Positions 3,279-60,150 of a stretch of 64,000 bases of DNA are shown one piece after another. The position numbers were made by a program, and so were the translations under genes. Numbering within the stretch: position 1 is the stretch's first letter; every line of letters begins with the position of its first letter. The stretch is from contig JABAQQ010000028.1 of assembly GCA_019187225.1 (NCBI GenBank), forward strand, positions 186,001 through 250,000, written 5' to 3'. The notes beneath the pieces are model-generated. The model had not been told where the DNA came from and did not search any database. It saw only the letters and a list, made by a program, of their open reading frames with translations. Source of the DNA: Saprospiraceae bacterium (GTDB lineage: Bacteria > Bacteroidota > Bacteroidia > Chitinophagales > Saprospiraceae).

Positions 3279-3441
3279 GGACGTTGGATGGATGGATTGT
3301 TGGACGTTGGATTGTTGGACGTTGGACTGTTGGACGTTGGACTGTTGGACACTTGACTTCAGCCCGTGGAATCATTGGTCTAACGTCCGGCAATCCAACA
3401 GTCCAACGTCCAACAGTCCAACGTCCAACAGTCCAACGTCC
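3279..3441. repeat. Palindromic tandem-repeat element between DUF1573 and aroK
   Basis: Left arm (3279-3352) is tandem GGACGTT / GGATTGTT / GGACTGTT. Right arm (3387-3441) is the complement (TCCAACAG, TCCAACGT units). The loop is about 35 bases. On either divergent mRNA the arm nearest the start codon reads CCAAC-rich. The element could fold into a hairpin of more than 50 bp. Confidence 0.85.
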
Positions 3442-3514
3442 AGCGATCAAATTTCCGGCAAAAATACAACGGCGGGTCGTTCCCGCTTCGCACTTTTGTC
3501 AAAACGAAAAGCAA

Positions 3515-4030
3515 ATGACCCGGCACGTATTTCTGATCGGCTTTATGGGCAGCGGCAAAACGCATTGGGGCCACATTCTGGCTGAACGGCTCGGCGTCCC
3601 TTTTCTCGACCTCGACGCTTTTATCGAAACGGGTGAAGGGAAAAGCATCGCCGCAATTTTTGAAGTCCTGGGAGAAAACGGTTTCCGGGCATTGGAGCGG
3701 GAATACCTGCATCGTGTTGCAGCGATGCCGCCGACTGTAATTGCTACCGGCGGCGGCACACCGTGTTTTTTCAACAACATGCCCTGGATGAAACAACACG
3801 GCACGACGATTTATCTGAAAACATCGCCGGAAATTTTGTTCGGGCGGCTCAAAAACGAACGCATGCAGCGGCCTTTACTGAAAAATCTGAGCGAGGCGGA
3901 ACTCAGGGACTTTATCCGGGAGCGGCTGGAAGAACGCGGGCCTTTTTATCGCCGGGCGGATTTTATTTGGGAAAATCCGGGCGACGAGCGGCTTGCTCTG
4001 GAAAAAATCGTCCGTCTTTTGGACAAATAG
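3515..4030 (+). CDS. aroK: Shikimate kinase
   Basis: 171 aa, the normal family size. It phosphorylates the 3-hydroxyl of shikimate with ATP in the chorismate pathway, in the cytoplasm. Visible: P-loop GFMGSGKT near residues 9-16, substrate motif DLDAFIE, and VIATGGGTPCF, the GGG shikimate-binding loop; the lid R-rich segment follows MQRPLL. The ATG at 3515 is chosen because the frame upstream only reads through the tandem repeat and gives low-complexity peptide. The leader carries the C-rich arm of the palindrome about 75 bases upstream. Confidence 0.93.
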   Translation: MTRHVFLIGFMGSGKTHWGHILAERLGVPFLDLDAFIETGEGKSIAAIFEVLGENGFRALEREYLHRVAAMPPTVIATGGGTPCFFNNMPWMKQHGTTIYLKTSPEILFGRLKNERMQRPLLKNLSEAELRDFIRERLEERGPFYRRADFIWENPGDERLALEKIVRLLDK

Positions 4031-4109
4031 CAGGAGAATGTTTAATTGAACGGTGATGCCAGGATAAGATGACGGCATTGATTCCGGGGTGTTTCAGCGC
4101 GATTCAAAT

Positions 4110-6020
4110 TCATTTGAGCGAAATTTTGCCATCCTCATCCTGCACTATTTTTTCTTCCTCCAGCAAATAGCCGATCACCTGCGCCACTGTCTCGTGTCGT
4201 TTCTGCGCGAAGGCTTTCAGGATTTCTTCGAAAGGCAGCGGCTCGTGCGCCAGCACCTGCCTGATCTTGCGTTCGTAGGACTCGAAGACCCCCACGCTGA
4301 GATCGCTTTTGTTCCGGCCGGTGCACACGTCGCAAATGCCGCAGGGCGGACTGTCCGGTTCTCCGAAATAGGCAAGCAGTTGCTGGCTGCGGCAGCGGCG
4401 GGTTTCGGCGTAGCGGATGGCCAGTTCCACGCGTTCTTCAGCGCGTTGCTTGCGGAAATTGAATTTCGCGAGGTCTATGGTCAGATTCTCGGCAGCCACG
4501 CGTTCGCGGGTAAAAATGAGTTGTGGTTTGTCCTTGCGCGGCTCGTACAGCAGCAGGTTTTCGCGCTGCGCCGTTTCCAGCATGTGCCGGATGACGTCGG
4601 GCGGCAGTTTGGCGTACTGCGACATGTAGGTCTCGCTGATGTCGGCAAAATGCGCGTTGATACCGGGATAGGCGCGCAGCAGCACTTTCAGCACCGTGTC
4701 AGCCTGTTTGTTGCGGATCTGGTAGTCGTACAGCGCTTCGCGGGACGCGGTGACGAAGGCGCGGGCGGGAGTACCCGTCGCGTCGCTGAGAGCGATCCAG
4801 CCTTCCTGTTCGAGCAGGCGCAGCGCTGCGTGGGTGGCCGCGTGTTCGAGTTTAAAAGCCGCGCAGAAGTGCTGCAGATCAAAATCAAAGGATTCGCCCA
4901 GACCGGCGCCGACGGCCAGCTGCGTGTAGCTGCCCAGTGCCTGGTACACCTTGCGCACCTGCTCAACCGGCGGGAAAGCCAATTGAAGGTGAAAACGCAG
5001 CGCTTCGGCGTCGGCAGGTGTGTAGAGCAGGGTGGCGTAGGATTTCTGGCCGTCGCGGCCGCCGCGCCCGGCCTCCTGGAAATACGCCTCGAGGCTGTCG
5101 GGCAGGGTCAGGTGCACCACTACGCGCACGTCGGGTTTATCAATGCCCATGCCGAACGCGTTGGTGCAAACGATGATGCGGGTTTTTCCGGCGATCCAGG
5201 CTTCCTGGCGGGCGTTGCGCTCTTCCGGCGCCAGGCCGGCGTGGTAGAAATCGGCGCTGAGGCGGTTGTCGGTCAGCAATTTGGCGATCTCTTTCGTCTC
5301 GCCCCGGCTGCGCGCATACACGATGCCCGTGCCGGGCACGTTGCGGAGTATGTCGAGCAGTTTTTCGCGTTTTTTACTTTCGTAGAGTACCGAATACGAC
5401 AAATTAGCACGCACAAAACTCTGCCGGAACACGTTTTTTTCGCGAAATGCCAGTTTTTCCCGGATGTCTTTCAGCACTTCGGAAGTGGCTGTTGCCGTAA
5501 GGGCTAGGATGGGAACCTTGGGAAGCAGAGCCCGCAGGTCGGCGATCTGTAAATAGGGCGGGCGGAAATCGTAACCCCACTGACTCACGCAATGCGCTTC
5601 GTCCACCGCCAGCAGGTTGACGTTCATGCGCTGGATGCGGGCGAGGGCGAGATCCGTTTTCAGGCGTTCGGGACTGAGATAAAGGAGTTTGTAAGCGCCG
5701 TTGCAGGCATTTTCAAAAACGATGTCTATCTCGCGGCGGCTCATGCCCGAAAAAATAGCCGCCGCCGGGATGCCGCGCTGTTGCAGGTTGTGCACCTGGT
5801 CCTTCATCAGGGCGATGAGCGGCGACACCACCAAACATATTCCTTCTTTGCACAAGGCAGGTACCTGGTAACAAATGGATTTGCCGCCGCCGGTGGGCAA
5901 CAACGCCAGCGTATCGCGCCCGGCCAACACCGAGCGGATGATGTCTTCCTGCAATGGCCGGAAGGACGCATAACCCCAATATTGTTGGAGGATGTGAAGC
6001 GGTTCGTGTTGCAGCGGCAC
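4110..6020 (-). CDS. recQ: ATP-dependent DNA helicase RecQ
   Basis: 636 aa. A 3'-5' helicase acting in recombination and fork repair. Walker A PTGGGKS at residues 42-48, DEAH at 140-143, helicase C-domain with GRGGRDG, then the RecQ zinc-binding segment (CRSQQLLAYFGE...CGICDVC) and a winged-helix-like C-terminus. A separate HRDC domain is not obvious; the protein stops at KISLK soon after the wHTH. The long + strand frame over the same DNA is a shadow. Confidence 0.95.
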   Translation of the reverse strand: MPLQHEPLHILQQYWGYASFRPLQEDIIRSVLAGRDTLALLPTGGGKSICYQVPALCKEGICLVVSPLIALMKDQVHNLQQRGIPAAAIFSGMSRREIDIVFENACNGAYKLLYLSPERLKTDLALARIQRMNVNLLAVDEAHCVSQWGYDFRPPYLQIADLRALLPKVPILALTATATSEVLKDIREKLAFREKNVFRQSFVRANLSYSVLYESKKREKLLDILRNVPGTGIVYARSRGETKEIAKLLTDNRLSADFYHAGLAPEERNARQEAWIAGKTRIIVCTNAFGMGIDKPDVRVVVHLTLPDSLEAYFQEAGRGGRDGQKSYATLLYTPADAEALRFHLQLAFPPVEQVRKVYQALGSYTQLAVGAGLGESFDFDLQHFCAAFKLEHAATHAALRLLEQEGWIALSDATGTPARAFVTASREALYDYQIRNKQADTVLKVLLRAYPGINAHFADISETYMSQYAKLPPDVIRHMLETAQRENLLLYEPRKDKPQLIFTRERVAAENLTIDLAKFNFRKQRAEERVELAIRYAETRRCRSQQLLAYFGEPDSPPCGICDVCTGRNKSDLSVGVFESYERKIRQVLAHEPLPFEEILKAFAQKRHETVAQVIGYLLEEEKIVQDEDGKISLK

Positions 6021-6040
6021 GGCTTGCGGGTCGTTTCGGA

Positions 6041-6048
6041 CAAAATTA
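6041..6048 (-). promoter_or_regulatory. Candidate -7 element of recQ
   Basis: TAATTTTG on the minus strand, 21 bases upstream of the recQ ATG, matches TAnnTTTG. The leader would be only about 14 nt. No convincing TTG -33 box was checked. Confidence 0.45.
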
Positions 6049-6070
6049 CGACAACGGCGACTGTAAAGCC

Positions 6071-6715
6071 TTAATTCTGGAGGTAAATGCCTTTTTCTGC
6101 AAGATACGCGGCGATATTGAAGGTAATCCCTTGAAGGACTTCCACGTCTTTATCCCAATCGAATGTTTCCCACTTCCTACCCGCTTCCGCAAGGACAATT
6201 TTTTGGCTTTTAGTGAAAATCCATATTACTTTTTTGGTGCCAAACTGGTGCAATTTATTGATTTTAGGGATGATAAAATCTTCCCACACATTGAATCTGT
6301 CAGTATCAGTTTCTACGTTGACATCTATCTCCACTACAACCTGCGGTGGACAATCGAGGTATTTTGAAGATATCTTCTCAGCAGGAAATGCACTTATTTC
6401 CACCAAAGCGAAATCGAGTGATAAATTTTCACCATGCCGGATATGCAAGCCGATTTCGCCGGAAAAGACCCAATATTTCTTCAAATCCAATTTTTGACCG
6501 AATAAAAGTATCAGGTATACCTTGATAAAGTTTTGTAAAGTGCTTTCCGCCACAATGTCATCAAATGATTTTCTTTTTGCCAACACTGAGCGATAGCCTG
6601 CATAATAAAATGGCATCCCTCCAATGGTTTCTTTAACCAGGTAGGCCGGAATTTTCCGTTTTTTTGATTTGGATTGACCCGGTGCAGGAGCGGGTATCGT
6701 CATATCGGATGCCAT
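6071..6715 (-). CDS. Uma2-family (DUF820) PD-(D/E)XK nuclease-like protein
   Basis: 214 aa from the ATG at 6715 (MASDMTIPAP); the longer frame adds a hydrophobic stretch with no family match. The core fits Uma2/DUF820: LDFALVE (the PD strand), PPQVVVEIDV (E-x-D strand), KINKLHQFGTKKVIWIF and a C-terminal QGITFNIAAYL. These are restriction-nuclease-fold proteins of unclear substrate, often in multiple copies and linked with mobile DNA. No toxin or methyltransferase partner is adjacent. Confidence 0.72.
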   Translation of the reverse strand: MASDMTIPAPAPGQSKSKKRKIPAYLVKETIGGMPFYYAGYRSVLAKRKSFDDIVAESTLQNFIKVYLILLFGQKLDLKKYWVFSGEIGLHIRHGENLSLDFALVEISAFPAEKISSKYLDCPPQVVVEIDVNVETDTDRFNVWEDFIIPKINKLHQFGTKKVIWIFTKSQKIVLAEAGRKWETFDWDKDVEVLQGITFNIAAYLAEKGIYLQN

Positions 6716-7035
6716 GCGAATGGTTTTGGTGAAAACGAGCCGCAAGATACATTTTATTATCAAAAAACCGCAATGAAACAGCAACTTTATTGCTTTTCCG
6801 GCAGTCAGAAAGGTGATGAAGGTCAACTGTACAGATGGGATGAAATCATCATATAATCTCCGGCATCACGGTTCCTTTGCAGTTTTTGGAGTTTTGGGTC
6901 AAAATTCCCGCCTTCTTCCCTTTAGGGATGACTGTGTCAAAAAACGGTCAAAATTTATTTGGACAAAATCTCAATAAGAAAAAAGGTTCTCTACATTTGC
7001 CGCGCCTTTTTTCACTTTTAAATACATAACTACAC
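6716..7035. other. Intergenic region upstream of the iron locus
   Basis: 320 bases without a gene. The only readable signal is TACATTTG at 6992-6999, a TAnnTTTG -7 element 36 bases before the DUF4856 ATG. No obvious Fur-like 19-bp inverted repeat was found by eye. Confidence 0.5.
6992..6999 (+). promoter_or_regulatory. Candidate -7 element of the iron locus
   Basis: TACATTTG matches TAnnTTTG and lies at a suitable distance from the ATG at 7036. The best upstream TTTG (6958-6961) is about 30 bases away, longer than usual. Confidence 0.45.
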
Positions 7036-8142
7036 ATGAAAATTACGCTCCCTTTGTTTGCCGTGTTATTCGTCGTGTCTGTTTTCACCGCTTGCGACGA
7101 TAAGGACAAAACCCCACTCGACATCCCCTCCGCCTACGACGGCACCGCATTTGAAACCAATGCCGCCACCCAGATCGGTGTGCTTTCCCGATTTACGAGC
7201 CTCGTAAATGAAGCCAAAAAAGGCCGCGCGACGGGTCAAACCGTTTCGCTCGACTCGCTGAATTACTGGTACACCGCAGGCAACCCCACCCTGCAAAGCC
7301 TTACTTCGGTGTATTATTCGGGAAAAACCCCCGAGTGGACGGCGCAACTGGCATTGGCAAGCGGCAATACCTACACGCCCGGTGTGCCGACCGGCAACGG
7401 CGGCGCCTACAGCGGCTACCTGTTCGATGCAAATGGTTTGGAACTGGAACAGTTGTTGGACAAAGGCCACTACGGCGCTTTGCTTTTTCATCATTTCAAC
7501 GAGCTGACATCGGGGACCATCACCGAAGCAACGGTAGATCAGATGCTGGCGATCTTCGGCGCCAATCCCACTTTTCCCAACAGTTACCAGGCCAACCTGC
7601 ACGCACAACCCGACAAGCTCATTGCCAACTACGCCGCCCGACGCGATAAAAACGACGGCAAAGGCTTTTACACCAACATCCGCGACCAGTTCATCAAATT
7701 GCAGGCGGCAGTGAAAGCCGGCCCCGATTACAACGAAGAACGCGACGAGGCCATCGCAGAAATCCGCCTGCTCTGGGAAAAAGCCAATGCTGCCACCATT
7801 ATCAACTACCTTTACGCCGTCATCAGCAAACTCAGCGCCACCAACCCCACCGATGCCGATATCGCTTCAGCGCTTCATTCATACGGTGAAACGGTCGGTT
7901 TCACCCACGGCTTCCGTACACTGGAGAACAAAAAGATCACCGATACGGAGATTGATGAACTGCTCACGTTGCTCAACACCCCGGCCAACGGCACGCCCAC
8001 TTCCTATAAATTCGCCACCGACCCGGTGAACGAATTGCCCAAACTGACCCAGGTCATCAGCCGCCTGAAATCCATTTACGGGTTCTCCGACCAGGAAATG
8101 GAAGACTTTAAGAAGAACTGGGTGTCAGAACAGAACCGGTAG
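7036..8142 (+). CDS. DUF4856 lipoprotein of the imelysin iron locus
   Basis: 368 aa. Lipoprotein signal MKITLPLFAVLFVVSVFTAC, acidic residues directly after the Cys (DDKDK). The body matches DUF4856: SAYDGTAFETNAATQIGVLSRF near the start, GHYGALLFHHFNEL mid-protein and a helical C-terminus. DUF4856 proteins occur beside imelysins and are thought to take part in iron handling, but no biochemistry is known to me. First gene of a + strand run (7036-17400). Confidence 0.85.
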   Translation: MKITLPLFAVLFVVSVFTACDDKDKTPLDIPSAYDGTAFETNAATQIGVLSRFTSLVNEAKKGRATGQTVSLDSLNYWYTAGNPTLQSLTSVYYSGKTPEWTAQLALASGNTYTPGVPTGNGGAYSGYLFDANGLELEQLLDKGHYGALLFHHFNELTSGTITEATVDQMLAIFGANPTFPNSYQANLHAQPDKLIANYAARRDKNDGKGFYTNIRDQFIKLQAAVKAGPDYNEERDEAIAEIRLLWEKANAATIINYLYAVISKLSATNPTDADIASALHSYGETVGFTHGFRTLENKKITDTEIDELLTLLNTPANGTPTSYKFATDPVNELPKLTQVISRLKSIYGFSDQEMEDFKKNWVSEQNR

Positions 8143-8246
8143 TTTACTTCACATAGTCTATTGGTTTCCAATGCTATGTAATCTATGTGCCTATGTGTTT
8201 AAAGGGCATTCTGAAATCAAAAGACATACTCTAAAATCTAAGGATC

Positions 8247-9365: not shown

Positions 9366-9421
9366 TGTGGGGAATGTGGGGAATGTATTTAACCACCAAA
9401 TTTTTTTAATAAACGATAAAC

Positions 9422-10585
9422 ATGAAAAAACAACTCACCATTCTGACTTTGTTTGTTCTGGCTGTGTGCGCTTTCGCTTTTCCTTCCTGTAAAAAGGACG
9501 AAAGCGATGAAATTGAAACCCTCAAAAAAGAAGCCCTCGAACAATATGCCGACATTGTGCTGGCTTCCTACGAAGATAGTTACAACACAGCAGTTGCGCT
9601 GAAAAAAAAGATAGACGAATTCGTGGCCACCCCCACCAATACTAATTTTCAAGCCTGCAAAGACGCCTGGCTCGCTGCCCGTATTCCTTACGGCCAGACG
9701 GAAGCCTACCGCTTCTACGGCGGGCCGATAGACGACGCCGACGGCCCGGAAGGTCTCATCAACGCCTGGCCGATGGATGAAAACTTCATTGACTATGTGA
9801 ACAGCGAACCCGGTGCAGGCCTTATCAACGACCCCGTCCAATTTCCCGATATCACGAAGCAGGTGCTCGCAGACCTGAACGAAAGCATTTCGGAAGAATC
9901 CATTTTCACCGGCTATCACGCCATCGAGTTTTTGCTTTGGGGACAAGACCTTTACACAGGTGGTCCCGGTCAGCGCCCCTATACCGACTTCGTGACCGGC
10001 GCTGGCGGCACGGCTGACAATCAGGCGCGGCGCGGCGAATACCTTAAAGTTGTGGCTGATCTATTGTTGGAAAATCTCGTTTCCGTGCGCGATGAGTGGG
10101 AAACAAATGGCGCTTACCGGCAGCAATTTTTAAACAACACGGAAACGAAAATCGCACTTGGTCATATTTTCACTGCTCTCGGCGAATTGAGTAAAGGTGA
10201 ACTTTCCGGTGAACGTATGTTTGTGGCCGTAGACACGAAAGACCAGGAAAACGAGCATTCCTGCTTCTCCGACAACACGCTCACCGACATCAAAATGAAT
10301 TTTCTCGGGCTGAAAAATGTGTATTTCGGCAAATACGAAAAGGTGGACGGCACGACGCTCTCCGGGCGCAGTTTCTCCGAAATCACCGAACGAATTGACC
10401 GCGCGAAAGCCGATGCTGTATCCGCCGCCTTCACAGATGCGCAGGCAAAAATCAATCTGATACCTGTACCGTTCGACCAAACCATCGTCAATAATCCCGG
10501 CCCGGTACTCGAAGCTATTGATGCGCTGCGCGATTTGAGCGACCGGCTGGCAGACGCCGGAACGGCGATCGGGGCGGAGTTTTAA
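9422..10585 (+). CDS. Imelysin-family lipoprotein with intact GxHxxE
   Basis: 387 aa. Lipobox FPSC followed by KKDESDE, consistent with surface lipoprotein export in Bacteroidota. Imelysin domain with ACKDAWLAARIPYGQTEAYR and the intact metal motif G164-Y-H166-A-I-E169 (TGYHAIEFLLWG). Imelysins (IrpA, ICMP, EfeO relatives) bind iron; proteolysis has been claimed for some but is not generally accepted. Tandem with the degenerate paralogue, followed by the DUF1111 diheme protein as in many Bacteroidota iron loci. Confidence 0.92.
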   Translation: MKKQLTILTLFVLAVCAFAFPSCKKDESDEIETLKKEALEQYADIVLASYEDSYNTAVALKKKIDEFVATPTNTNFQACKDAWLAARIPYGQTEAYRFYGGPIDDADGPEGLINAWPMDENFIDYVNSEPGAGLINDPVQFPDITKQVLADLNESISEESIFTGYHAIEFLLWGQDLYTGGPGQRPYTDFVTGAGGTADNQARRGEYLKVVADLLLENLVSVRDEWETNGAYRQQFLNNTETKIALGHIFTALGELSKGELSGERMFVAVDTKDQENEHSCFSDNTLTDIKMNFLGLKNVYFGKYEKVDGTTLSGRSFSEITERIDRAKADAVSAAFTDAQAKINLIPVPFDQTIVNNPGPVLEAIDALRDLSDRLADAGTAIGAEF

Positions 10586-10589
10586 TTTT

Positions 10590-10663
10590 CCGACAGGATT
10601 GACAGGATGAACAGGATGTCTTTTGCATAGCGGAAAAAAATCTTGTTTTTCCTGTCAATCTTG
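10590..10663. repeat. Palindromic tandem repeat between imelysin and DUF1111 genes
   Basis: Left arm carries tandem GACAGGATT / GACAGGATG / AACAGGATG; right arm reads TCTTGTTTTTCCTGTCAATC. Starts right after the imelysin stop. The arm proximal to the next ORF is pyrimidine-rich on the mRNA. Confidence 0.8.
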
Positions 10664-10685
10664 TCAAAAAGTTTGAAGCGATTAG

Positions 10686-12095: not shown

Positions 12096-12101
12096 CCATT
12101 T

Positions 12102-12232: not shown

Positions 12233-12279
12233 CATTTACTAGTAATTAGGAGACAACCTCCATTTGTTGGAAATCCGAA

Positions 12280-13671: not shown

Positions 13672-13677
13672 TGAACG

Positions 13678-23741: not shown

Positions 23742-23808
23742 GAAAGAGACGGAAGGTAAATAACATTCAGTCAAATAGAATTTTGTGCCGGCGAAGTGAA
23801 TTTTTTTG

Positions 23809-23877
23809 GCAAGATTGACAAGAATCACAGGATTTCGGGATGAAATAAAATCCTGTAAATCTTGTAAATCCTGTCAA
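23809..23877. repeat. Palindromic tandem repeat between metG and uvrC
   Basis: Left arm CAAGATTGACAAGAATCACA plus GGATTT; right arm AAAATCCTGTAAATCTTGTA plus AATCCTGTC. The unit is close to that at 10590-10663 (GACAGGATT), so both belong to one sub-family. It could also act as the metG terminator. Confidence 0.8.
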
Positions 23878-23901
23878 AATATAAAAAATCGCGTCAATTT
23901 C

Positions 23902-26051: not shown

Positions 26052-26222
26052 CAGGACGGTGGACGGTGGACGGTAGACGGTGGACGGTGGACGGTGGACG
26101 GTGGACGGTGGACGGTGGACGGTGGACGGTAGACGGTGGACGGTAGACGGTGGACGGCTACTTGCATTTTATGCAGTTTGCCCTCTACCCTCCATCTTCT
26201 ACCTTCCACCCTCTACCCTTTT
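26052..26222. repeat. Tandem heptamer element in the metG leader
   Basis: About 15 tandem copies of GGACGGT/AGACGGT from 26052 to 26160, then a degenerate complementary arm (CTACCCTCCATCTTCTACC) at 26185-26222. On the metG mRNA it reads CCGTCCA repeated, directly abutting the ATG. The metG -7 element lies outside it, so it would be transcribed. Confidence 0.88.
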
Positions 26223-28439: not shown

Positions 28440-28624
28440 GGTGGACGATGGACGATGGACGATGGACGGTGGACGGTAGACGGTGGACGGTGGACGGTGG
28501 ACGGTAGACGGTGGACGGTGGACGGTGGACGGTGGACGGTAGACGGTGGACGGATTCGCCCAGGATCATTTTTGTCAATTCTACGCCGTCCACCGTCTAC
28601 CGTCCACCGTCTACCGTCTACCAT
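28440..28624. repeat. Palindromic heptamer element upstream of DUF4340
   Basis: Left arm (28440-28555) about 16 units of GGACGGT/GGACGAT/AGACGGT; right arm (28588-28624) about 5 complementary units ACCGTCC/ACCGTCT. Loop about 32 bases. Same unit as at 26052, 32721 and 43210. Confidence 0.9.
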
Positions 28625-28632
28625 CTTTTTTT

Positions 28633-30983: not shown

Positions 30984-30990
30984 TTTTACA

Positions 30991-31115
30991 GGTTGATAAA
31001 GGTTGATAAAGGTTGATGAGGGTTGATGAGGGTTGATGAGGGTTGATGAGGGTTGATGAATCGCGGTGTACTCTACGTTATCAACTTTATCAACTCTTAT
31101 CAACCCTCCTCAACC
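30991..31115. repeat. Palindromic decamer element in the LolC/E-like leader
   Basis: Units GGTTGATAAA and GGTTGATGAG (about 7 copies, 30991-31058), then a complementary arm at 31077-31115 (TTATCAACTTTATCAAC, CAACCCTCCTCAACC). It fills the whole gap between the permease start and the stop of the phosphohexomutase gene. Confidence 0.88.
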
Positions 31116-31117
31116 AT

Positions 31118-32518
31118 TTAAAGAATCGTCTCTTTCGTTGCGTCCAGTATTTTTCGCGTTTCGGCGAGTGAAGCCGCCTGGGCGTACACGCGCAATACCG
31201 GTTCAGTGCCGGATGCGCGGATCATTACCCATTTTTCATCGCCGAGCAGGAATTTCCAGCCGTCGAGGTCTTCCACGCCTTGCACTTTGTAAGGGCCGAA
31301 AGCCTTGTAGGAACGGCTGTTGCAAGCGGCGATGACCGCCTGTTTTTGCGCTTCGGTGATGTGCAGATCGTCGCGGTCGAAAGCGAAAGCGCCGACTTCC
31401 CTGTACACTTCCTGCACCAATCCTTTCACGGTCTTGCCGGTTTTGGCCATGAACTCCAGTACCAGCAAACCCATCCAGATGCCGTCGCGTTCAGGGATGT
31501 GGCCTTTCACTGCCAGGCCGCCCGATTCCTCACCGCCCACCAGCACGTCTTCTTTGGTCATAATCTCGGCGATGTATTTGAATCCCACCTTCGTGATCTC
31601 ATAAGGCAGGCCGAATTTCTCGGCCATTTTTTTCAACTTGTCCGTCACGGAAAAAGTGAACACGACCTTGCCGCGCATATTCTTGTACTTATAGAGGTAG
31701 AGCAACAGGATGAGCAGGAGATGATGGCTGTCCACAAAATTGCCATCCTCGTCGTACATCCCGATGCGGTCGGCATCGCCGTCGTTGGCCAGACCCGCGG
31801 TGATCTTCGGGTTCTTTCTGATCGTTTCGCTCAGGTCGAGCAGGTTGCGGTGAATGGGTTCGGGCGCTTTGCCGTGCATGCCCGGATTTTCGTCGCAGCG
31901 CAGGAAAATCGAGCGCGGCAACAATTTGCGCACTGCTCTTTGTCCGGCGCCATACATCGCGTCGTAAGCGAGTCTGCCCGCATTTTGTTTGATGCTTTTC
32001 AGGTCAAAGTTTTTCTTTACATGGCGGAGATACATGGTTTCCAGGTCCACGTCCACCAATAGCTTTTTCTGGGCCAGGTCGTTGAGCGGCGGCAGCACGG
32101 GCAAGGTACAGGCGTCGGGAATCAGGGCTTCTACCGCTTCGATATCCGCAGGGATGGAAGGGCCGCCGTAGGACGCTTTGAGTTTGTAGCCATTATAGGA
32201 AGGAGGATTGTGGCTGGCTGTGATGACCACGCCGATGTCGGCTTTCAGTTTTACCACGCCGAGGCTGACCATCGGAGTACTGACGAAACCCGTCGCGACA
32301 TGGCATTTGATGCCGTAAGCACCCAGGACGCGGGCGGTCGTAGCGACGAACAAAGGGCCGCCGAAACGGCAATCGTGGCCGATAACCGCTTTTTTCATTT
32401 TTCGCTGCTTCATGAAACGGGCCGTCGCTTCGGCCACACGCTTGACATTGTCTACGGTGTAATCGTCGGCGATGATGGCGCGCCAGCCGTCGGTTCCGAA
32501 TTTGATAGGAGTTGCCAT
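31118..32518 (-). CDS. Phosphoglucomutase/phosphomannomutase family protein
   Basis: 466 aa, alpha-D-phosphohexomutase superfamily. Active-site phosphoserine loop TASHNPPSYNGYK, metal loop as DGDADRIG, sugar loop GGEESGG, C-terminal phosphate loop RASGTEPVLRVY. It converts hexose 1- and 6-phosphates for cell-wall or exopolysaccharide precursors; which sugar cannot be told. It is probably followed in the same transcript by the permease gene, 130 bp downstream across a palindromic repeat. Confidence 0.92.
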   Translation of the reverse strand: MATPIKFGTDGWRAIIADDYTVDNVKRVAEATARFMKQRKMKKAVIGHDCRFGGPLFVATTARVLGAYGIKCHVATGFVSTPMVSLGVVKLKADIGVVITASHNPPSYNGYKLKASYGGPSIPADIEAVEALIPDACTLPVLPPLNDLAQKKLLVDVDLETMYLRHVKKNFDLKSIKQNAGRLAYDAMYGAGQRAVRKLLPRSIFLRCDENPGMHGKAPEPIHRNLLDLSETIRKNPKITAGLANDGDADRIGMYDEDGNFVDSHHLLLILLLYLYKYKNMRGKVVFTFSVTDKLKKMAEKFGLPYEITKVGFKYIAEIMTKEDVLVGGEESGGLAVKGHIPERDGIWMGLLVLEFMAKTGKTVKGLVQEVYREVGAFAFDRDDLHITEAQKQAVIAACNSRSYKAFGPYKVQGVEDLDGWKFLLGDEKWVMIRASGTEPVLRVYAQAASLAETRKILDATKETIL

Positions 32519-32521
32519 TCT

Positions 32522-32565
32522 GAATTGTTGATTTGTTGATTTGCGGATTTGTTGAGCAGGTTGAC
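32522..32565. repeat. Short tandem repeat in the phosphohexomutase leader
   Basis: TTGTTGATTTGTTGATTTGC followed by GGATTTGTTGAGCAGGTTGA. On the mRNA it reads as A/C-rich AATCAACA units ending just before the ATG. No second arm, so a half element. Confidence 0.6.
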
Positions 32566-32720: not shown

Positions 32721-32776
32721 AACCGTCCACCGTCAACCGTCTACCGTCTACCGTCAACCGTCAACCGTCTACCGTG
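32721..32776. repeat. Heptamer half-element abutting the pcm start
   Basis: About 8 units of ACCGTCC/ACCGTCA/ACCGTCT, running into the GTG start codon of pcm (the last unit ACCGTGA contains it). No opposing arm nearby. Confidence 0.8.
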
Positions 32777-43209: not shown

Positions 43210-43298
43210 AACGGTAGACGGTAGACGGTAGACGACACACCCTTTATCTTGTTAACTCTACACCGTTCACCGTCTACCGTCAACCGTCTACCGTCTAT
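43210..43298. repeat. Palindromic heptamer element at the S24 stop codon
   Basis: Left arm (43210-43232) three AGACGGT units; right arm (43261-43298) ACCGTCT/ACCGTTC/ACCGTCA units. The last unit contains the CTA that is the TAG stop of the S24 gene on the minus strand. Same unit as at 26052, 28440 and 32721. Confidence 0.88.
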
Positions 43299-45158: not shown

Positions 45159-45650
45159 ATGAGTAAAAAAAGATTCTCCGAAGGTCTCGACGACCTGTTC
45201 AACGATACGCATAGCGCGGAAGAGAACCTGCTGGGCGCCGGCATGGCTGTGGCCCACTCGGCCGAGCGCAAATCCGCGCACAAAAACTTCATGGCCGACC
45301 TCGACTCCCTGCTCCAGGAAGCGCTGGAAGAAAGCCTCGAACGTTATGACGCCAACCAACCAGACACCACCACACCAAGCGGAAAAACCAAGGCAACCGG
45401 CGCCAGTATTACTTACCGCCCACCGTTGACCGGCCTGGATGCGCTCATCCGGCAGACGATAGACGTGCAGGAAATCAACACGGATGAAGCCACCGGTAAA
45501 AAACGCCTGACCGTTACCGTTGACCGCACCAAATTAGAAAAACTCAAAACCATCGCCCGCCTGGAAAATTCCTACATGAAGGACCTGCTCGTACAACTCA
45601 TTGACGATTACATCGAGGAATATACGCAGCAAAAAGGACTTGAACTTTGA
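45159..45650 (+). CDS. ParA partner protein (ribbon-helix-helix-like C-terminus)
   Basis: 163 aa from the ATG at 45159. Acidic N-terminus SEGLDDLFNDTHSAEENLLG, variable linker rich in T/P, and a C-terminal segment KRLTVTVDRTKLEKLKTIAR plus LENSYMKDLLVQLIDDYIEE that resembles a strand-helix-helix DNA-binding unit. Probably fills the ParB/adaptor role, by inference from position. The TGA stop is the first part of a palindromic repeat. Confidence 0.75.
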   Translation: MSKKRFSEGLDDLFNDTHSAEENLLGAGMAVAHSAERKSAHKNFMADLDSLLQEALEESLERYDANQPDTTTPSGKTKATGASITYRPPLTGLDALIRQTIDVQEINTDEATGKKRLTVTVDRTKLEKLKTIARLENSYMKDLLVQLIDDYIEEYTQQKGLEL

Positions 45651-45720
45651 ATGCGGATTGCGGATTGATTGATTGCGGATTGTGCTGAAATCCGCAATCA
45701 TCAATCCGCAATCCGCATTC
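45649..45720. repeat. Palindromic element between ParA partner and DUF3137
   Basis: Left arm (45649-45679) GAATGCGGATTGCGGATTGA plus TTGATTGCGGA; right arm (45691-45720) is the complement with one base less. Loop 11. Unit GCGGATT. Overlaps the stop codon upstream; further AAATCCG units run on to the GTG start at 45743. Confidence 0.92.
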
Positions 45721-45742
45721 AAAAATCCGAAATCAAAAATCC

Positions 45743-46684: not shown

Positions 46685-46694
46685 ACCATTCCGC

Positions 46695-47596: not shown

Positions 47597-47612
47597 AAAA
47601 AGACAAGTGCTA

Positions 47613-52627: not shown

Positions 52628-52630
52628 GGG

Positions 52631-52711
52631 AATGCGAAATCGGGGGCGGGGGTATGTCTGAAATTTTTCCGTGAAAAATTTCAGACATACCCCCGCCCCC
52701 GATTTCGCATT
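52631..52711. repeat. Perfect palindrome with 39-bp arms and 3-base loop
   Basis: Left arm 52631-52669, right arm 52673-52711, no mismatch. The loop is 3 bases (CGT). Key parts: AATGCGAAATCG, a G-rich core GGGGGCGGGGG and TATGTCTGAAATTTTTC. It begins 4 bases after the PhoD stop and ends 25 bases before the hemoglobin ATG. There is no internal tandem unit, unlike other elements. Confidence 0.98.
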
Positions 52712-52736
52712 TACAGGAAAAAAATTGCGAACAACA

Positions 52737-53135: not shown

Positions 53136-53157
53136 TCAGGTACAAAGATTCACGCTA

Positions 53158-53355: not shown

Positions 53356-53403
53356 ACTATGTTAAATTTTTGTATGAGCGGCAGGTTAATGAAAAAGATT
53401 GCT

Positions 53404-53411
53404 TACTTTTG
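53404..53411 (+). promoter_or_regulatory. Candidate -7 element of the metalloprotease gene
   Basis: TACTTTTG, 41 bases upstream of the ATG at 53452. Confidence 0.45.
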
Positions 53412-53451
53412 TAATACCATTTGATTTATTAACTTCCATTTTCTTTGCCCA

Positions 53452-55332: not shown

Positions 55333-55347
55333 ATATTCTCTTGAATT

Positions 55348-55953: not shown

Positions 55954-55989
55954 TTATCTCAGGTTGCGACCTACACAACGCGGCATCAA

Positions 55990-56077
55990 TGGGAACGCGG
56001 ATGACGCGGATTGGGCAGATTTTCACAGATTTTAATCTGTTCGCAATCCGTTTTCATCCGCATCATCCGCGTTCCCA
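55990..56077. repeat. Palindrome between convergent lipoprotein and Spy-like genes
   Basis: Arms TGGGAACGCGGATGACGCGG plus ATTGGGCAGATTTTCACAGAT (left) and ATCTGTTCGCAATCCG plus TTTTCATCCGCATCATCCGC plus GTTCCCA (right) around a short T-rich loop; imperfect, about 42 bp arms. Unit close to GCGGATT of the 45649 element. Lies between convergent stops, so it could terminate both. Confidence 0.9.
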
Positions 56078-56113
56078 TTGTTATCACGCCGGGCCGGTCA
56101 TAAAAACTTCGCT

Positions 56114-56569
56114 TCAATTCTTCCCCCCCGGATTTCGCCGCTCCTGTCGCCTCTCTCTTAGTTCCTGCAACCGTTTGAGCAGCGATTCGCGGAATTCGCG
56201 CTCGGCTTTGGGCAACTTGGCGATTTTGCGGATGGGCAACACTTTGCGCAGTTTTTGCACGAGGTCTTTTTCCAGGTCGAACTCCTTCTGGCGGACCTCG
56301 AAGTATTTTTTGACGTATTCCTCCACTTCCTGGTCGCTCATGCCGTCGAGGTCGCCTTCGGGTTTGAGTTGTTTTTGCAGGTTTTCCCGGTTGTCGGCGT
56401 ATTCGTTGAATATGGGCCAGAATTTCTCGGCCTCTTCGGAGGAAAGATTCAGCACACGGGTATAGACTTCGGCGCGCAGGGCCCTGACCCTTTCGCCCAG
56501 GTTTTCCTGGCCTTTAGAGAGACCCGGCAACAGTCCGGTCATCAAAACGATAAATATCAGACGCTTCAT
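56114..56569 (-). CDS. Spy/CpxP-like periplasmic helical protein
   Basis: 151 aa. Signal peptide MKRLIFIVLMTGLLPGLSKGQ. All-helical, charged: ALRAEVYTRVLNLSSEEAEK, FWPIFNEYADNRENLQKQL, and a C-terminal RLQELRERRQERRNPGG. Such small periplasmic sensors are regularly third in ECF sigma/anti-sigma operons of Bacteroidota, and probably report on envelope state. Order here on the minus strand: sigma, anti-sigma, this gene. A C7 run sits in the last codons. Confidence 0.75.
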   Translation of the reverse strand: MKRLIFIVLMTGLLPGLSKGQENLGERVRALRAEVYTRVLNLSSEEAEKFWPIFNEYADNRENLQKQLKPEGDLDGMSDQEVEEYVKKYFEVRQKEFDLEKDLVQKLRKVLPIRKIAKLPKAEREFRESLLKRLQELRERRQERRNPGGKN

Positions 56570-56610
56570 AGTACAAACAATTGTCGAGGATTTGAATGTT
56601 TCACGGGGTT

Positions 56611-56690
56611 TCAGATATTGGGATATTGATTCTGAAAATCAAAAATATGATTATAATATCCCACTATCTCGATATCTCAATATCGCACCA
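56611..56690. repeat. Palindromic repeat in the Spy-like leader
   Basis: Left GATATTGGGATATTGAT (56612 on) and right ATATCCC...CGATATCTCAATATCG, unit ATATTGGG / CCCAATAT. Ends 3 bases after the stop region of the anti-sigma gene. C/A-rich on the mRNA next to the ATG. Confidence 0.75.
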
Positions 56691-56693
56691 CGT

Positions 56694-57245
56694 TTACGTT
56701 TTCAGCAGGTTTTCCAGTTCTTCATCACTCATTTCTTTGAGCAGCAATTCGAGTTCCTCGTCCGAAAGGTCGTCGAGCGGATCGGAAGTTTTGGTTTTGG
56801 TTTCGGCGGGCGATGCGGGTTTCGTTTCCGGTTGCGCACGGCTATTGACCGGAACGTCGGCGAGCAGTTCGGCGTCAAAATCGCGGATGTTTTCCAGCAC
56901 ATAGGCTTCTATTTCTTCTTCCGTCAATTCCTGCGCCGTCGCGGCCTGCAGCGCATCAGTTTGCGGCGGCGTGCGGAACAGCCACGTCGCGGCCAGCACT
57001 AAGGTCAGCGCTGCTGCAACTGCCCACGCTACCTGCGACCGGGAAAAGCGGGCAAAAAGCCCGCCGCGCCTGGCTCCCATCACTTGTTTACGGCGCATGG
57101 CCGAAGCATCCACCCGGCCCAGCACCGAATCTTCCAGGGCCCCGAAATAACCTTCGGGCACGCGGAAGCCGTCGTCCTGCCCGCGCAGCTCGCGCAGCAA
57201 AGGCGAAAGGCCTTTCAATTCGTCGTCGAGCGATTCTTTTTTCAT
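56694..57245 (-). CDS. Anti-sigma-like single-span membrane protein
   Basis: 183 aa. N-terminal cytoplasmic part (LSPLLRELRGQDDGFRVPEG YFGALEDSVLGR in two parts) typical of Bacteroidota anti-sigma partners, one membrane span (VAWAVAAALTLVLAATWLF, residues about 85-103), then a periplasmic acidic tail with a repeat: LSDEELELLLKEMSDEELEN. Downstream of the ECF sigma gene by 61 bases. Predicted to hold the sigma factor at the membrane. Confidence 0.75.
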   Translation of the reverse strand: MKKESLDDELKGLSPLLRELRGQDDGFRVPEGYFGALEDSVLGRVDASAMRRKQVMGARRGGLFARFSRSQVAWAVAAALTLVLAATWLFRTPPQTDALQAATAQELTEEEIEAYVLENIRDFDAELLADVPVNSRAQPETKPASPAETKTKTSDPLDDLSDEELELLLKEMSDEELENLLKT

Positions 57246-57253
57246 AATATCAA

Positions 57254-57305
57254 GGTTAGAGGGTTTAGAGGGTTTTTGCCAAACCTTTTAAATCTTCTGA
57301 ACTTT
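57254..57305. repeat. Degenerate tandem repeat upstream of the anti-sigma gene
   Basis: TTAGAGGGT in tandem (57257-57275), followed by GGTTT / AAACC around TTGCC. On the mRNA it reads ACCCTCTAA units next to the ATG. Confidence 0.6.
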
Positions 57306-57306
57306 C

Positions 57307-57873
57307 TCAATCTTCATTAAACGCCGCCTCGATCTTCTTCACCGCGTGGTGGAACGACGCTTTCAGAGCCCCCACCGAAGTATCGAGCATGGCCGACATT
57401 TCCTCGTAGGGCATTTCGTCGTAATAACGCAGGTTGAACACAAGGCGTTGTTTTTCAGGCAATCGGGCAACTTCTTTTTGCAGCCGCACCTGCACGTCAT
57501 CGCCGTCGAACCATTCGTCGGCCTGCAGGCGGTTGGTCAGCAGCACCGTCGCGTCGTCGAGCGAAGCGGCGGCGTGGCGCGCCTTGCTCTGCAGGTGCGT
57601 GATGGCCTCGTTCGTCGCTATCCGATAAAGCCAGGTGTACAATTTCGACTTGCCTTCGAACTGCAAAATACCCCGGTAGATTTTGATGAACGTGTTTTGC
57701 AGCACATCGTCGGCGTCTTCGTGCACCAGCACCAAGCGGCGCACATGCCAGTAGAGCCGTTCTTTGTACTGCTCCATCAGCAAGCGAAACCCGCGTTCGA
57801 ACGTCCGGTCCGAGCGCAGCAGTTCCATGATCTGTTCATCCGACACGGGTTTGTTCGTCGCTGAGGCTTGCAA
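57307..57873 (-). CDS. ECF RNA polymerase sigma factor
   Basis: 188 aa. Region 2: VHEDADDVLQNTFIKIYRGI, YTWLYRIATNEAITHLQ. Region 4: RLPEKQRLVFNLRYYDEMPY followed by EEMSAMLDTSVGALKASFHH, the DNA-recognition helices. It activates its own envelope-stress-like regulon. Promoters it would read are not visible. Starts 68 bases from the MbnH stop. Confidence 0.93.
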   Translation of the reverse strand: MQASATNKPVSDEQIMELLRSDRTFERGFRLLMEQYKERLYWHVRRLVLVHEDADDVLQNTFIKIYRGILQFEGKSKLYTWLYRIATNEAITHLQSKARHAAASLDDATVLLTNRLQADEWFDGDDVQVRLQKEVARLPEKQRLVFNLRYYDEMPYEEMSAMLDTSVGALKASFHHAVKKIEAAFNED

Positions 57874-57941
57874 GTTGTCCTGTTTGTTTTGCTATGACGA
57901 AGATAAGGCGCGATGGTTTAACCGGAAGGCAAAAAACTGCT

Positions 57942-58973
57942 TTATTCGGGCGCCCGGTAAGCGGGATTGTTCAGAAATCCCGGGTCGGTCAGGGCGTTCA
58001 AAAACGCGATCAGATCTGCTTTTTCAGCCGCCGTCAGCCCCAGCGGGCGCACCAGCGGGCTTTTGTTGGGGTGAGCCTTGCCACCGGAATCGTAGTGTTC
58101 CAGCACCGCCTGGAGGGTCGGCAGCGAGCCGTCGTGCATGTAGGGCGCCGTGACGGCCACATTACGCAACGTAGGCGTTTTGAACAGGGCGCGGTCGCTT
58201 TCAAGTCCCGTCAGGCGCATGCGCCCCGAATCGGGATACACTTCGTAAAGACCGTTGTTGGCCGGCTCCTGGTTGGTGAACAAAAATCCTTCGTGGCATT
58301 TCGAGCAACTCAGGCGTTCGCTGTGAAACAGATCGTAGCCGCGACGGGCGGCGGCAGACAGCATTTTTCCCTGAAAAAACCAGCGATCGAACGGCGAATT
58401 GCCACTCAGCATCGTCCGCTCGAAAGCGGCAATGGAACGGGTGATGACGAACGCATCCGGATCTCGGCCATAGGCCTCCTGAGCGGCGGCGACGTAATCC
58501 GGCATGCGGTTCAGGCGTTCGGCTATTTCCAGAATATTGAAATCGAATTCGTTGTGTTCCTGTATCGGCACAAGTATCTGCATTTCTAATGTCGGTACAC
58601 TGGCTTCGCGCAGCAGTTTTTTTTGATAGGCCACATTGGCCAGGGTGGGCGCATTGCGCGTGCCGGGGCGACCTTCTATGCCGAAACTGACGGCAGTACT
58701 GTCGGAAAAAGCCAGGTGCGCGAAATGACAGGAGCCGCAGGAGCGCGTGCTGTCGCGGCTCAGCGCGGGTTCGTAGAACAGCCGCCTGCCCAACTCTACC
58801 CGGCTGCGGGTCAGCTGATTGTCGGAAGGGATGGGTGGAGGCGGGAATCCTGCCGGTATGGCCAGCACGTATTCGCCGGTATCCGGCGGCAGCACAGGCG
58901 CCTGCTCTTCTTTCCGGCAGGACAAAAAGAAAAGCGGGAGCGACAAAACGGATACGGACAAACGGAGATTCAT
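57942..58973 (-). CDS. mbnH: MbnH-like diheme peroxidase lipoprotein
   Basis: 343 aa. Lipobox FLSC then RKEEQ. Two heme c motifs C79GSCH83 (CGSCHFAHLAFSD) and CSKCHEGFLF, with FKTPTLRNVAVTAPYMHDGS. In the MauG/CCP superfamily. Adjacent to and overlapping MbnP by ATGA. In methanotrophs MbnH oxidises a Trp of MbnP to kynurenine so that MbnP binds copper. The pairing supports MbnH rather than simple peroxidase. Confidence 0.85.
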   Translation of the reverse strand: MNLRLSVSVLSLPLFFLSCRKEEQAPVLPPDTGEYVLAIPAGFPPPPIPSDNQLTRSRVELGRRLFYEPALSRDSTRSCGSCHFAHLAFSDSTAVSFGIEGRPGTRNAPTLANVAYQKKLLREASVPTLEMQILVPIQEHNEFDFNILEIAERLNRMPDYVAAAQEAYGRDPDAFVITRSIAAFERTMLSGNSPFDRWFFQGKMLSAAARRGYDLFHSERLSCSKCHEGFLFTNQEPANNGLYEVYPDSGRMRLTGLESDRALFKTPTLRNVAVTAPYMHDGSLPTLQAVLEHYDSGGKAHPNKSPLVRPLGLTAAEKADLIAFLNALTDPGFLNNPAYRAPE

Positions 58974-59971
58974 GGGTCTACTACCATCAATGGCTTTTGC
59001 GCCAGCAATTTTCCATTTTCATAAAAAGCAAACCGGTACAAGCCTTCCGGCAAACCGTCGGTGGCCAAACGGGTGGCGCCCGAAGCCGGCAATCCGCCGA
59101 GGACGCGCACGTGTTGGCCGAAGCAGTTGGTCAGCACCAGTTGGAGCGGCCCGGCAGCAGGAAGGTCGTAGCGAAGCAGTGTTTCGCCGGCGGCGGGATT
59201 GGGCGCGGCAGATACCCGTAGCGAGTTGTTCAGGACTTCGGGAGCGCCCGAAACGTACGACATCGAGAAAAAAGATTCTCCGGCGGCGTTGTTCATCATC
59301 AGTTGGTTGAGGCCGTTGCTTCCGTGGTTGATGTATTCGAGCGCCATCGGAATGTCCTTGAACAGCCTGGCATAGTCGAGGTCGAAGTGCAGGTGGAGCG
59401 TGCCGCCGGCAGCAGTTGCCGTTCCGCTCAGTTCGATGGTTTTGTAGAGCGTATCGCCGAGGTTGTGGAACTGATACACAATTTCCGGCGTGCCGTCGTT
59501 GTTGTTGTCCACTTCACCCTCTACAACCAGGAAGGTGTATCCGGCAGCCCAGCCCCAATGCATCGAAGGATTTTGCGGCGCCAAAGGGTGGTCGGCGGGA
59601 TAAGCGGCCGGGTCGAGGTGGTTGTGGCCGGCGTCCACGCCGAGGCCCAGTTTGACGCCCTGCGCGGCGTTCACCGGCCATTCGCCAAGGTCGTATTCGG
59701 CATCGGAGTTTTCGGCGTTTACCAACAGATATTTGTCGGTAAGCGATACGACGCCACCCCCGGGTTGCAGGATCTCTATTTTGGACAAATAGAACTGGGC
59801 GCGTGTAATGTTCAGCAGTTTGCCGTTCCAGATGTTGAAATGGGTGTTGCCCAGTTCCAGCGTATCGCCGCCCGCTTTATGAGTGAAAGAAAAAACGACG
59901 CGGTTGCTGGTTTGGGCGGGTGCCGCTGCGGCAACAATGCAGAGCGACAAACCAATAAATAAGTGTTTCAT
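58970..59971 (-). CDS. mbnP: MbnP-family copper-binding protein with T9SS sorting domain
   Basis: 333 aa from the ATG at 59971. Signal peptide ending APAQ. MbnP core: FSFTHKAGGDTLELGNTHFN, RAQFYLSKIEI, LGLGVDAGHNHLDPAAYPA, PSMHWGWAAGYTFLVVEGEV. Many His and Trp (NIW, MHWGW), candidates for kynurenine conversion and Cu ligation. C-terminal T9SS domain (AAPNPAAGETLLRYDL, LPEGLYRFAFYENGK), so it should be on the cell surface, not periplasmic as in methanotrophs. Upstream of and overlapping mbnH. Confidence 0.87.
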   Translation of the reverse strand: MKHLFIGLSLCIVAAAAPAQTSNRVVFSFTHKAGGDTLELGNTHFNIWNGKLLNITRAQFYLSKIEILQPGGGVVSLTDKYLLVNAENSDAEYDLGEWPVNAAQGVKLGLGVDAGHNHLDPAAYPADHPLAPQNPSMHWGWAAGYTFLVVEGEVDNNNDGTPEIVYQFHNLGDTLYKTIELSGTATAAGGTLHLHFDLDYARLFKDIPMALEYINHGSNGLNQLMMNNAAGESFFSMSYVSGAPEVLNNSLRVSAAPNPAAGETLLRYDLPAAGPLQLVLTNCFGQHVRVLGGLPASGATRLATDGLPEGLYRFAFYENGKLLAQKPLMVVDP

Positions 59972-60071
59972 TTTCGGCAGTAAATATTGAATAATGGGTG
60001 CCCGGTTAAAGTCCGGCAAACATGGTCACAAAAAAAAGAAATAGGTTTGACTTTAAACGGCCTAAGCAAGC

Positions 60072-60150
60072 GGACATTGGATTTTTGACATTGGACATTT
60101 GACTAAATGATTGGTTTCCAAGGTCTTATAGTCCAACGTCCAATGTCAAA
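60072..60150. repeat. Palindromic repeat upstream of mbnP
   Basis: Left GGACATTGGATTTTTGACAT plus TGGACATTTGACT; right AGTCCAACGTCCAATGTCAA. Unit GGACATT, similar to GGACGTT of the 3279 element. C-rich on the mbnP mRNA side, about 100 bases before the ATG. Confidence 0.8.

Follow-up and report, generated by a model that had tools for sequence, protein, structure and literature searches.

Intergenic spacers in a 64,000-nt stretch of a Saprospiraceae genome (bases 186001-250000 of contig C5, called the window below; the genome comprises 7.18 Mb in 73 contigs) carry arrays of short tandem units, either single or as inverted pairs. Near called start codons these arrays were found only in the C/A-rich orientation, in which, unlike in their reverse complement, hardly any start codons and little predicted structure occur. 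We consider it probable (about 0.62) that they are expandable spacer arrays built from many different units and that the orientation of the start-proximal arrays is set by selection at ribosome entry. Within one genus related to the Saprospiraceae, they have spread through the spacers of some species.

The genome under study (G000) was compared with the congeners G008, G010, G011, G017, G021 and G022. A first set of 1.25 Mb of G000 included the window and held 690 spacers, and a further 800 kb served as a hold-out with unchanged settings. Polarity was thereby covered over 2.05 Mb of G000 (29% of the genome) and over 400 kb of G021. Genes were called with a purpose-written hexamer model, and all start codons are predictions. 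A block was counted as start- or stop-adjacent when its end lay at most 12 nt upstream of a start or at most 12 nt after a stop, and it was scored in the sense of the gene as C-form (C/A-rich) or G-form (G/T-rich).

At starts, the ratio of C-form to G-form was 64:0 in the first set, 25:0 in the hold-out and 18:0 in G021, which gives 107:0 in total. A preliminary description, made from the window alone, had proposed such a bias, and over the 29% of the genome and in G021 the bias was found rather than the absence of bias that would speak against it. In the first set, the start-adjacent arrays mostly lay 2-10 nt from the start. The same description had treated the rule as a property of palindromes. 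This was ruled out, as the start-adjacent blocks of the first set showed 37:0 when unpaired and 25:0 when paired, with two between thresholds. At stops, the ratio of G-form to C-form by block was 68:8 in the first set, 31:3 in the hold-out and 24:3 in G021, and when only the 25 nt nearest the gene end were scored, the three sets gave 125 G, 11 C and 1 neutral. Contacts with gene ends also exceeded random placement. In 500 trials on the first set the 64 start contacts compared with a mean of 24.3 and a maximum of 43, and the 76 stop contacts with a mean of 30.5 and a maximum of 48; the corresponding hold-out values were 25 against 11.9 (maximum 20) at starts and 34 against 15.1 (maximum 24) at stops. 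Beyond 60 nt from a gene end, blocks were of mixed or reversed polarity, which is to be expected where the opposite end of the spacer lies nearer.

An unpaired array that fills the spacer between co-directional genes can obey only one of the two rules, that for starts or that for stops, and such spacers thus provide a conflict test. Over the three sets, the start rule was obeyed 11:0 when both gaps were at most 25 nt, 15:2 when gaps of 40 nt were accepted and 20:4 at 60 nt. The polarity of unpaired arrays was 13:6 between convergent genes, which have no start nearby, 33:5 between divergent genes and 96:14 between co-directional genes. The conflict test and the weak convergent polarity together indicate that the start side dominates for single arrays. 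A gene caller that hides G-form arrays inside genes was considered and rejected: among 11 in-gene arrays with a score of at least 17 and a period that is not a multiple of 3 (11 more, with multiple-of-3 periods, were left unlisted), one was G-form near a 5′ end with its C-form partner beside it, and the others were C-form.

The properties of the leaders were computed for 82 leader arrays, 64 from G000 and 18 from G021. As found, ATG occurred in one array and GTG or TTG in three. When the arrays were reversed in silico, ATG appeared in 32 of them, and 81 contained a start codon of some kind. The median predicted folding energy from -60 to +20 was -5.1 kcal/mol for the natural sequences; reversing the array changed it to -14.5 and shuffling the array to -5.6, and in 75 of the 82 leaders the predicted structure was weaker as found than reversed. 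Leaders with arrays also folded more weakly (-5.3, n=76) than native leaders did (-10.3, n=627), despite a slightly higher G+C content. Native leaders avoid ATG as well: in 636 of them, the 20 nt before the start contained 69 occurrences, compared to 206 on the reverse strand. In published work, Bacteroidetes do not use Shine-Dalgarno pairing, AUG is under-represented near starts and, in F. johnsoniae, structure tunes initiation, according to the sections of Baez 2019 (PMC6847099) on these points; the ATG avoidance of native G000 leaders and the openness of the array leaders agree with these findings. A promoter-like TAnnTTTG site was present within 100 nt upstream of 21 of the 82 arrays in sense and of four in antisense, and in none of the 82 did it fall inside the array or between the array and the start. 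This placement favours transcription of the array as part of the leader, though it is no proof of it. Selection for an unstructured entry site without stray starts, one of the two explanations offered in the preliminary description, is thus well supported by computation for start-adjacent arrays. One leader of G022 (L158) is an exception in kind to the start-codon-free leaders: its CAATGACC-like units continue up to the start codon, and most of them contain ATGA, an overlapping start and stop.

The arrays are abundant and their units diverse. An inverted-repeat score of at least 14 was reached in 203 of the 690 spacers of the first set, compared to two when each spacer was replaced by one dinucleotide shuffle, and a tandem score of at least 12 in 98 of 749 upstream regions (92 C-rich, six G-rich), compared to two in one shuffle of each. 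The first set contained 249 tandem blocks in 177 of the 690 spacers, of which 141 were paired with an inverted array of that spacer, 100 were unpaired and eight fell between thresholds. In the first set and G021 together, 101 unit families were distinguished, 28 with at least three blocks and 62 as singletons. The commonest unit was ACCGTCC/GGACGGT, and the array periods were mostly 7-8 and 14-16. Doubled GGACGKT occurred 420 times in the genome, and the pattern read backwards did not occur.

In the window, each spacer was scored against 200 dinucleotide-preserving shuffles and passed when it scored above every shuffle. The preliminary description had placed tandem units with a complementary arm at 13 coordinates, which correspond to 12 spacers since 32522 and 32721 share one. 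Tandem units stood at 11 of the 13 and an inverted repeat at nine (3279, 10590, 23809, 26052, 28440, 30991, 43210, 45649 and 60072); 32522 and 32721 were tandem only, and 56611 and 57254 were neither. The elements are listed with their scores against the shuffle maximum; where no strand is given, none was assigned.

3293-3448: palindrome in a divergent spacer with units GGACGTT/GGACTGTT, inverted-repeat score 47.5 against 14.0; G-first (the G-rich arm leads), arms 3295-3349 and 3394-3448, loop 44 nt.
10584-10673: short palindrome in a co-directional spacer with ACAGGATTG-like units, inverted-repeat score 17.5 against 12.5, tandem score 13.0 against 10.5; its G-form block lies 6 nt past a stop.
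23804-23879: short ACAGGATTG-type palindrome 3′ of metG, inverted-repeat score 19.5 against 12.5, tandem score 13.5 against 10.0; the nearest start is at least 74 nt off.
26054-26157, minus strand: metG leader array with sense units ACCGTCC, tandem score 82.5 against 12.0; stops 4 nt short of the ATG.
26181-26217: inverted arm, diverged, that partners the metG leader array, inverted-repeat score 19.5 against 12.5.
28442-28626: GGACGGT palindrome between co-directional genes, inverted-repeat score 33.5 against 12.5, tandem score 87.5 against 13.0; blocks 28442-28553 and 28586-28626, next start 97 nt off.
30987-31059, minus strand: MacB/FtsX permease leader array with CAACCCTCAT-like sense units, tandem score 55.5 against 10.0; 3 nt from the called start.
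31080-31120: inverted partner arm of the permease leader array, inverted-repeat score 22.5 against 12.5.
32521-32551, minus strand: phosphohexomutase leader array, unpaired, with AACAAATC sense units, tandem score 15.5, partner score 6.5; 2 nt from the ATG.
32722-32773, plus strand: pcm leader array, unpaired, with ACCGTCA-like sense units, block score 35, partner score 9.5; abuts the called start (0 nt), in a spacer without an inverted repeat above shuffles.
43211-43294: GACGGTA palindrome between convergent genes, inverted-repeat score 21.5 against 13.0; the distal arm adjoins the stop of the right-hand gene.
45646-45742, plus strand: GCGGATT palindrome and C-form array, inverted-repeat score 32.5 against 12.5; occupies the whole spacer between the preceding stop and the called start of DUF3137 (0 nt gap).
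60073-60150: GACATTGGACATT palindrome of a dispersed subfamily, inverted-repeat score 17.0 against 12.5.

The reported ATATTGGG palindrome at 56613-56669 did not rise above its shuffles (inverted-repeat score 12.5 against 14.5, tandem score 10.5 against 11.5), nor did the reported TTAGAGGGT element at 57252-57304 (9.0 against 10.0 and 11.0 against 12.5). The C/A-rich reading beside nearby starts was confirmed at 26052 (4 nt), 30991 (3 nt), 32522 (2 nt), 32721 (0 nt) and 45649 (0 nt). The wording that the arm stands next to a start codon does not apply at 3279, where the arms are 66 and 96 nt away from the two starts, or at 60072, where the block is 101 nt from a start. The elements at 32522 and 32721 are two arrays of different units, one before each divergent gene, and not the arms of one palindrome. 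Pfam agreed with the gene names for methionyl-tRNA synthetase, the MacB/FtsX permease (MacB_PCD and FtsX in the protein), phosphohexomutase, PCMT and DUF3137; the protein at 56694-57245 matched no Pfam family at E<=0.001. The phosphohexomutase matched mostly uncultured Saprospiraceae and other Bacteroidota assemblies, with a protein identity of up to 91%. The 60072 element belongs to a dispersed subfamily with a conserved, TAAATGATTGGTTG-like loop, whose core pattern had eight matches in the 2.05 Mb of G000 and none in the 0.4 Mb of G021; the repeat population is therefore mixed, and GGACATT arrays may have been seeded by an element of this type.

Two further repeats lie in the window. A perfect palindrome at 52631-52711 has arms of 39 bp and a loop of 3 nt, and nine near-perfect hairpins of this type were present in the first 1.25 Mb, all G-first, with AATG/AACG ends and mostly an A/T-rich centre. 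Their cores differ and are mostly G-rich, and they are fully complementary in eight of the nine and nearly so in the other; cores that vary and remain paired are suggestive of copying between the arms or of strong selection for the hairpin. An inverted repeat of CAATGGGAACGCGGATGACGCGGAT with a loop of 44 nt at 55987-56080 has similar sequences elsewhere in the genome and is likely to represent another dispersed family.

At orthologous junctions of the congeners, the leaders of seven G000 genes with arrays were compared, along with eight genes without one. Before gene A (C1:362554), the unit was ATTCATC in G000 and ACATTGACC in G022, with degenerate or related units in G010 and G017 and no array in G021. 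Before gene B (C1:365604), it was TCTCACG in G000, CAATCACT in G022 and ACATTGACC-like in G010, where the start is uncertain, and the array was absent in G021 and G017. At the DUF3137 junction, a palindrome reached from the upstream stop to the start in G000, with the unit GCGGATT, and likewise in G022, with the unit TTATGAG, and G010 and G021 had no array. The metG leader had ACCGTC-like units, judged by eye and short in the relatives, in G000, G010 and G017, at most a trace in G021 and no array in G022. Before phosphohexomutase, G021 had an ACTCAAA-like array, and G010 and G022 had none; arrays of other units also preceded the start in the orthologs L069, L075, L090 and L091, from named assemblies, and most of the 32 orthologs shown were without one. 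No start-adjacent array was found before pcm in the relatives, given the starts used, and for the permease G010 had a palindrome upstream of the promoter-like site, with none in G021 and G022. Among the eight genes without a G000 leader array, X8634 was arrayed in G017 with degenerate units in G010, g21897 had repeats in G022, and the other six had no array at their orthologs or no usable start. In this comparison, several junctions differed in their unit and agreed in their layout.

Heterocystous cyanobacteria also carry short tandem heptamers in spacers, the short tandemly repeated repetitive (STRR) heptamers, which are not known to show a start-codon polarity. The preliminary description knew of no named family with this rule, but two papers describe such repeats. 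The sections of Rehm 2015 (PMC4692102) on tandem heptamers in spacers report GGGAATC in two Xanthomonas genomes and a GGGGA(C/T)T-type unit in Nostoc, with the G-rich repeats in antisense before starts or in sense after stops, whatever the gene orientation, and with convergent, that is G-first, inverted pairs in Xanthomonas (70 in Xcc and 75 in Xac). Quadruplexes are discussed there for the strand rule, and the function was left open by the authors. The strand placement is alike in our genomes (107:0 at starts and 125:11 at stops), as are the G-first inverted pairs, and arrays of this kind are thus already known in terms of the strand rule and G-first pairs given for Xanthomonas. They differ in that one quadruplex-capable unit type per genome was studied in the sections cited, whereas here there are many units, most leader arrays are not quadruplex-capable and one junction can carry different units in different genomes. 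In the 2.05 Mb of G000, doubled GGGAATC was absent and doubled GGGGATT, the Nostoc-type unit, was present 23 times. MacGregor 2015 (PMC4679880), in its account of TAACTGA repeats in Beggiatoaceae, Cyanobacteria and five Bacteroidetes, describes arrays that end a few nucleotides before starts, mostly in one orientation and mostly without Shine-Dalgarno sequences, with placement limited by stop codons in the forward frames. In position and orientation those arrays resemble the ones described here (64:0 in the first set), but doubled TAACTGA was absent from either strand of the 2.05 Mb of G000 and the 0.4 Mb of G021. BrickBuilt of Porphyromonas gingivalis, described in PMC4596501 as a minisatellite and miniature inverted-repeat transposable element (MITE), also combines tandem repeats with inverted-repeat ends in Bacteroidota spacers. 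It differs, as presented there, in its 23-nt unit, its fixed leader and tail subunits and its distance of at least 49 nt from the nearest gene. The many-unit form, the exclusion of quadruplexes by units lacking GG, the co-directional conflict test and the unit turnover were not found in our searches of openly licensed papers.

If start-proximal orientation is set by selection at ribosome entry, the array would be transcribed within the 5′ leader, on mRNAs that do not use Shine-Dalgarno pairing. The G/T-rich orientation would be purged, since it would bring competing start codons and structure to the ribosome entry site, and purifying selection would leave a set of interchangeable, unstructured leaders. 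More tentatively, inverted pairs may arise when one arm is copied from the other, and a G-form array at a stop may be a partner arm or may itself provide the stop codon. Several observations weigh against this reading. Among the 92 G-form arrays at stops in the first set and G021, 32 contained the stop codon and 22 overlapped it partially, but 38 lay outside it, so the G-form polarity at stops (125:11) is only partly explained. Palindromes between convergent genes were G-first in 24 of 26 cases in the first set (one C-first, one neutral) and in six of six in the hold-out, which goes beyond what selection at starts can explain. Where the G-arm of a paired leader is transcribed, it could pair with the C-arm. 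No TAnnTTTG site was present within 100 nt of 61 of the 82 array leaders. Outside the genus, where genes were called crudely on loci of at most 3 kb, 17 loci yielded nine abutting arrays, of which six followed the rule and three broke it. None of the G000 members in 27 usable pairs of one-to-one orthologs with G021 had a leader array. Finally, samples of 158 and 160 kb from two array-poor congeners held three blocks in 58 spacers (G008) and one block in 75 (G011), and the near absence of arrays in these samples marks the feature as lineage-specific and dispensable.

The alternatives overlap with this reading and with each other and are not mutually exclusive, and the probabilities attached to them do not sum to one. 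The strongest of them, which we regard as a real but minor possibility, is an orientation-specific DNA process in which G-rich 3′ ends would snap back or switch template and copy themselves into G-first pairs; the loss of an arm would leave single arrays whose G-strand points away from the adjacent gene, and both rules, for starts and for stops, would be by-products. Such a single geometry accounts for starts and stops alike, and it fits the tandem palindromes, which were G-first in 86 of 91 cases in the first set (three C-first, two neutral) and in 29 of 29 in the hold-out, in every gene context. Other inverted repeats in the same spacers, the nine AATG/AACG-end hairpins aside, had no such polarity (50 compared to 35 of 93). 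The order of unit variants was mirrored between the arms beyond unit shuffles in seven of 49 palindromes (p<=0.05), but the arms had been chosen as best matches, which biases the test and makes it suggestive only. Of the common generating process proposed in the preliminary description, arm-to-arm copying is thereby weakly supported. The predicted DNA self-folding was better for the G-strand in 133 of 283 arrays and worse in seven, yet its median was zero for both strands, and no gradient of unit decay, as a sign of age, was found along 132 arrays (p=0.42). The process is further opposed by unpaired arrays, which are little polarised between convergent genes (13:6) and obey the start when they fill co-directional spacers (11:0), and no enzyme could be linked to it. 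A related and rather doubtful proposal combines the two ideas: a lineage-specific, unit-agnostic generator would make G-first inverted tandem arrays from a G-rich 3′ end copied back, and selection at starts would turn their C/A-rich arms into swappable leaders with function kept, as possibly at the DUF3137 junction of G000 and G022.

For candidate generators, 26 genomes of the genus were searched for SbcD, Y1 transposases and reverse transcriptases, and none of these separated array-rich from array-poor genomes cleanly. Y1 transposase matches numbered 3, 4 and 3 in the array-rich G000, G021 and G022, compared to 4 and 0 in the array-poor G008 and G011. Array abundance does not track these counts, as it would be expected to for repetitive extragenic palindromic (REP) sequences or bacterial interspersed mosaic elements (BIMEs) moved by Y1 transposases of the REP-associated tyrosine transposase (RAYT) type. 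Reverse transcriptase matches numbered 3, 1, 4, 2 and 0 in the array-rich G000, G021, G022, G017 and G010 (the G010 assembly is 82% complete) and 0 in both G008 and G011. A link with reverse transcriptases is therefore conceivable, but such matches were also present in many congeners in which the GGACGKT motif occurs once at most. SbcD exceeded the family cut-off in four of the 26 genomes, in one of them only together with neighbouring hits, and 21 had a weaker match and one had none. A weak SbcD may make long palindromes tolerable, yet alone it does not predict arrays.

Transcription terminators, or insulating structures for ribosome termination after stops, appear unlikely as the general explanation. 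Palindromes were commoner between convergent genes (21 of 103 regions, compared to 50 of 433 for co-directional genes, in the first set; six of 49 compared to 14 of 285 in the hold-out), stop contacts exceeded chance (76 against 30.5), and structure after stops is common according to the part of Chemla 2020 that treats it. However, 100 of the 249 blocks lack a partner, many arrays lie a few nucleotides before start codons, and a hairpin is indifferent to polarity, yet the G-first order is nearly universal. A depletion between divergent genes, as in the Rehm-type repeats, was present for palindromes in the first set (11 of 154 compared to 50 of 433) but absent in the hold-out (nine of 93 compared to 14 of 285). 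One or more families of mobile elements resembling MITEs or REP sequences, inserted in spacers, seem slightly less probable still. The eight pattern matches of the conserved-loop 60072 subfamily speak for them, as do the recurrence of units at many loci and the sporadic presence of two surveyed units in 16 and seven of 392 Bacteroidota genomes; the backward-pattern control of this survey was uninformative, since the reversed pattern is the same repeat in another phase. Among the loops of 78 palindromes, 58 loop pairs reached a local score of 12, but of the 15 best pairs several matched through array sequence inside the loop and some through common loop sequence. Moreover, the 101 unit families, 28 of them with at least three arrays, do not fit one element, and Y1 transposase counts do not follow the arrays. 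Repeats placed for gene regulation through G-quadruplexes or i-motifs, as discussed for the Xanthomonas and Nostoc heptamers, are very improbable here. The strand placement is that of the corresponding sections of Rehm 2015 (PMC4692102), and doubled GGGGATT is present, but only four of the 82 leader arrays had a three-tier and 32 a two-tier pattern, with 50 lacking a two-tier pattern. The six unit families without GG (consensus AAACACTC, AAATCAAC, ACTCATTC, ATCATTC, ACATCTCTC and AACTCAT) summed to 38:0 at starts and 15:0 at stops. Units lacking GG thus obey the rule, which refutes quadruplexes as the general cause, although quadruplexes could still apply to a subset.

With many units under one rule, the rule is separated from the unit sequence, and the ribosome entry site is indicated as the filter at starts. 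The G-first inverted pairs are thereby isolated as a second fact, which selection at starts does not explain and which can be addressed by comparing strains. The arrays constitute a natural library of leaders that differ in sequence and are similar in composition, in a phylum that initiates translation without Shine-Dalgarno pairing.

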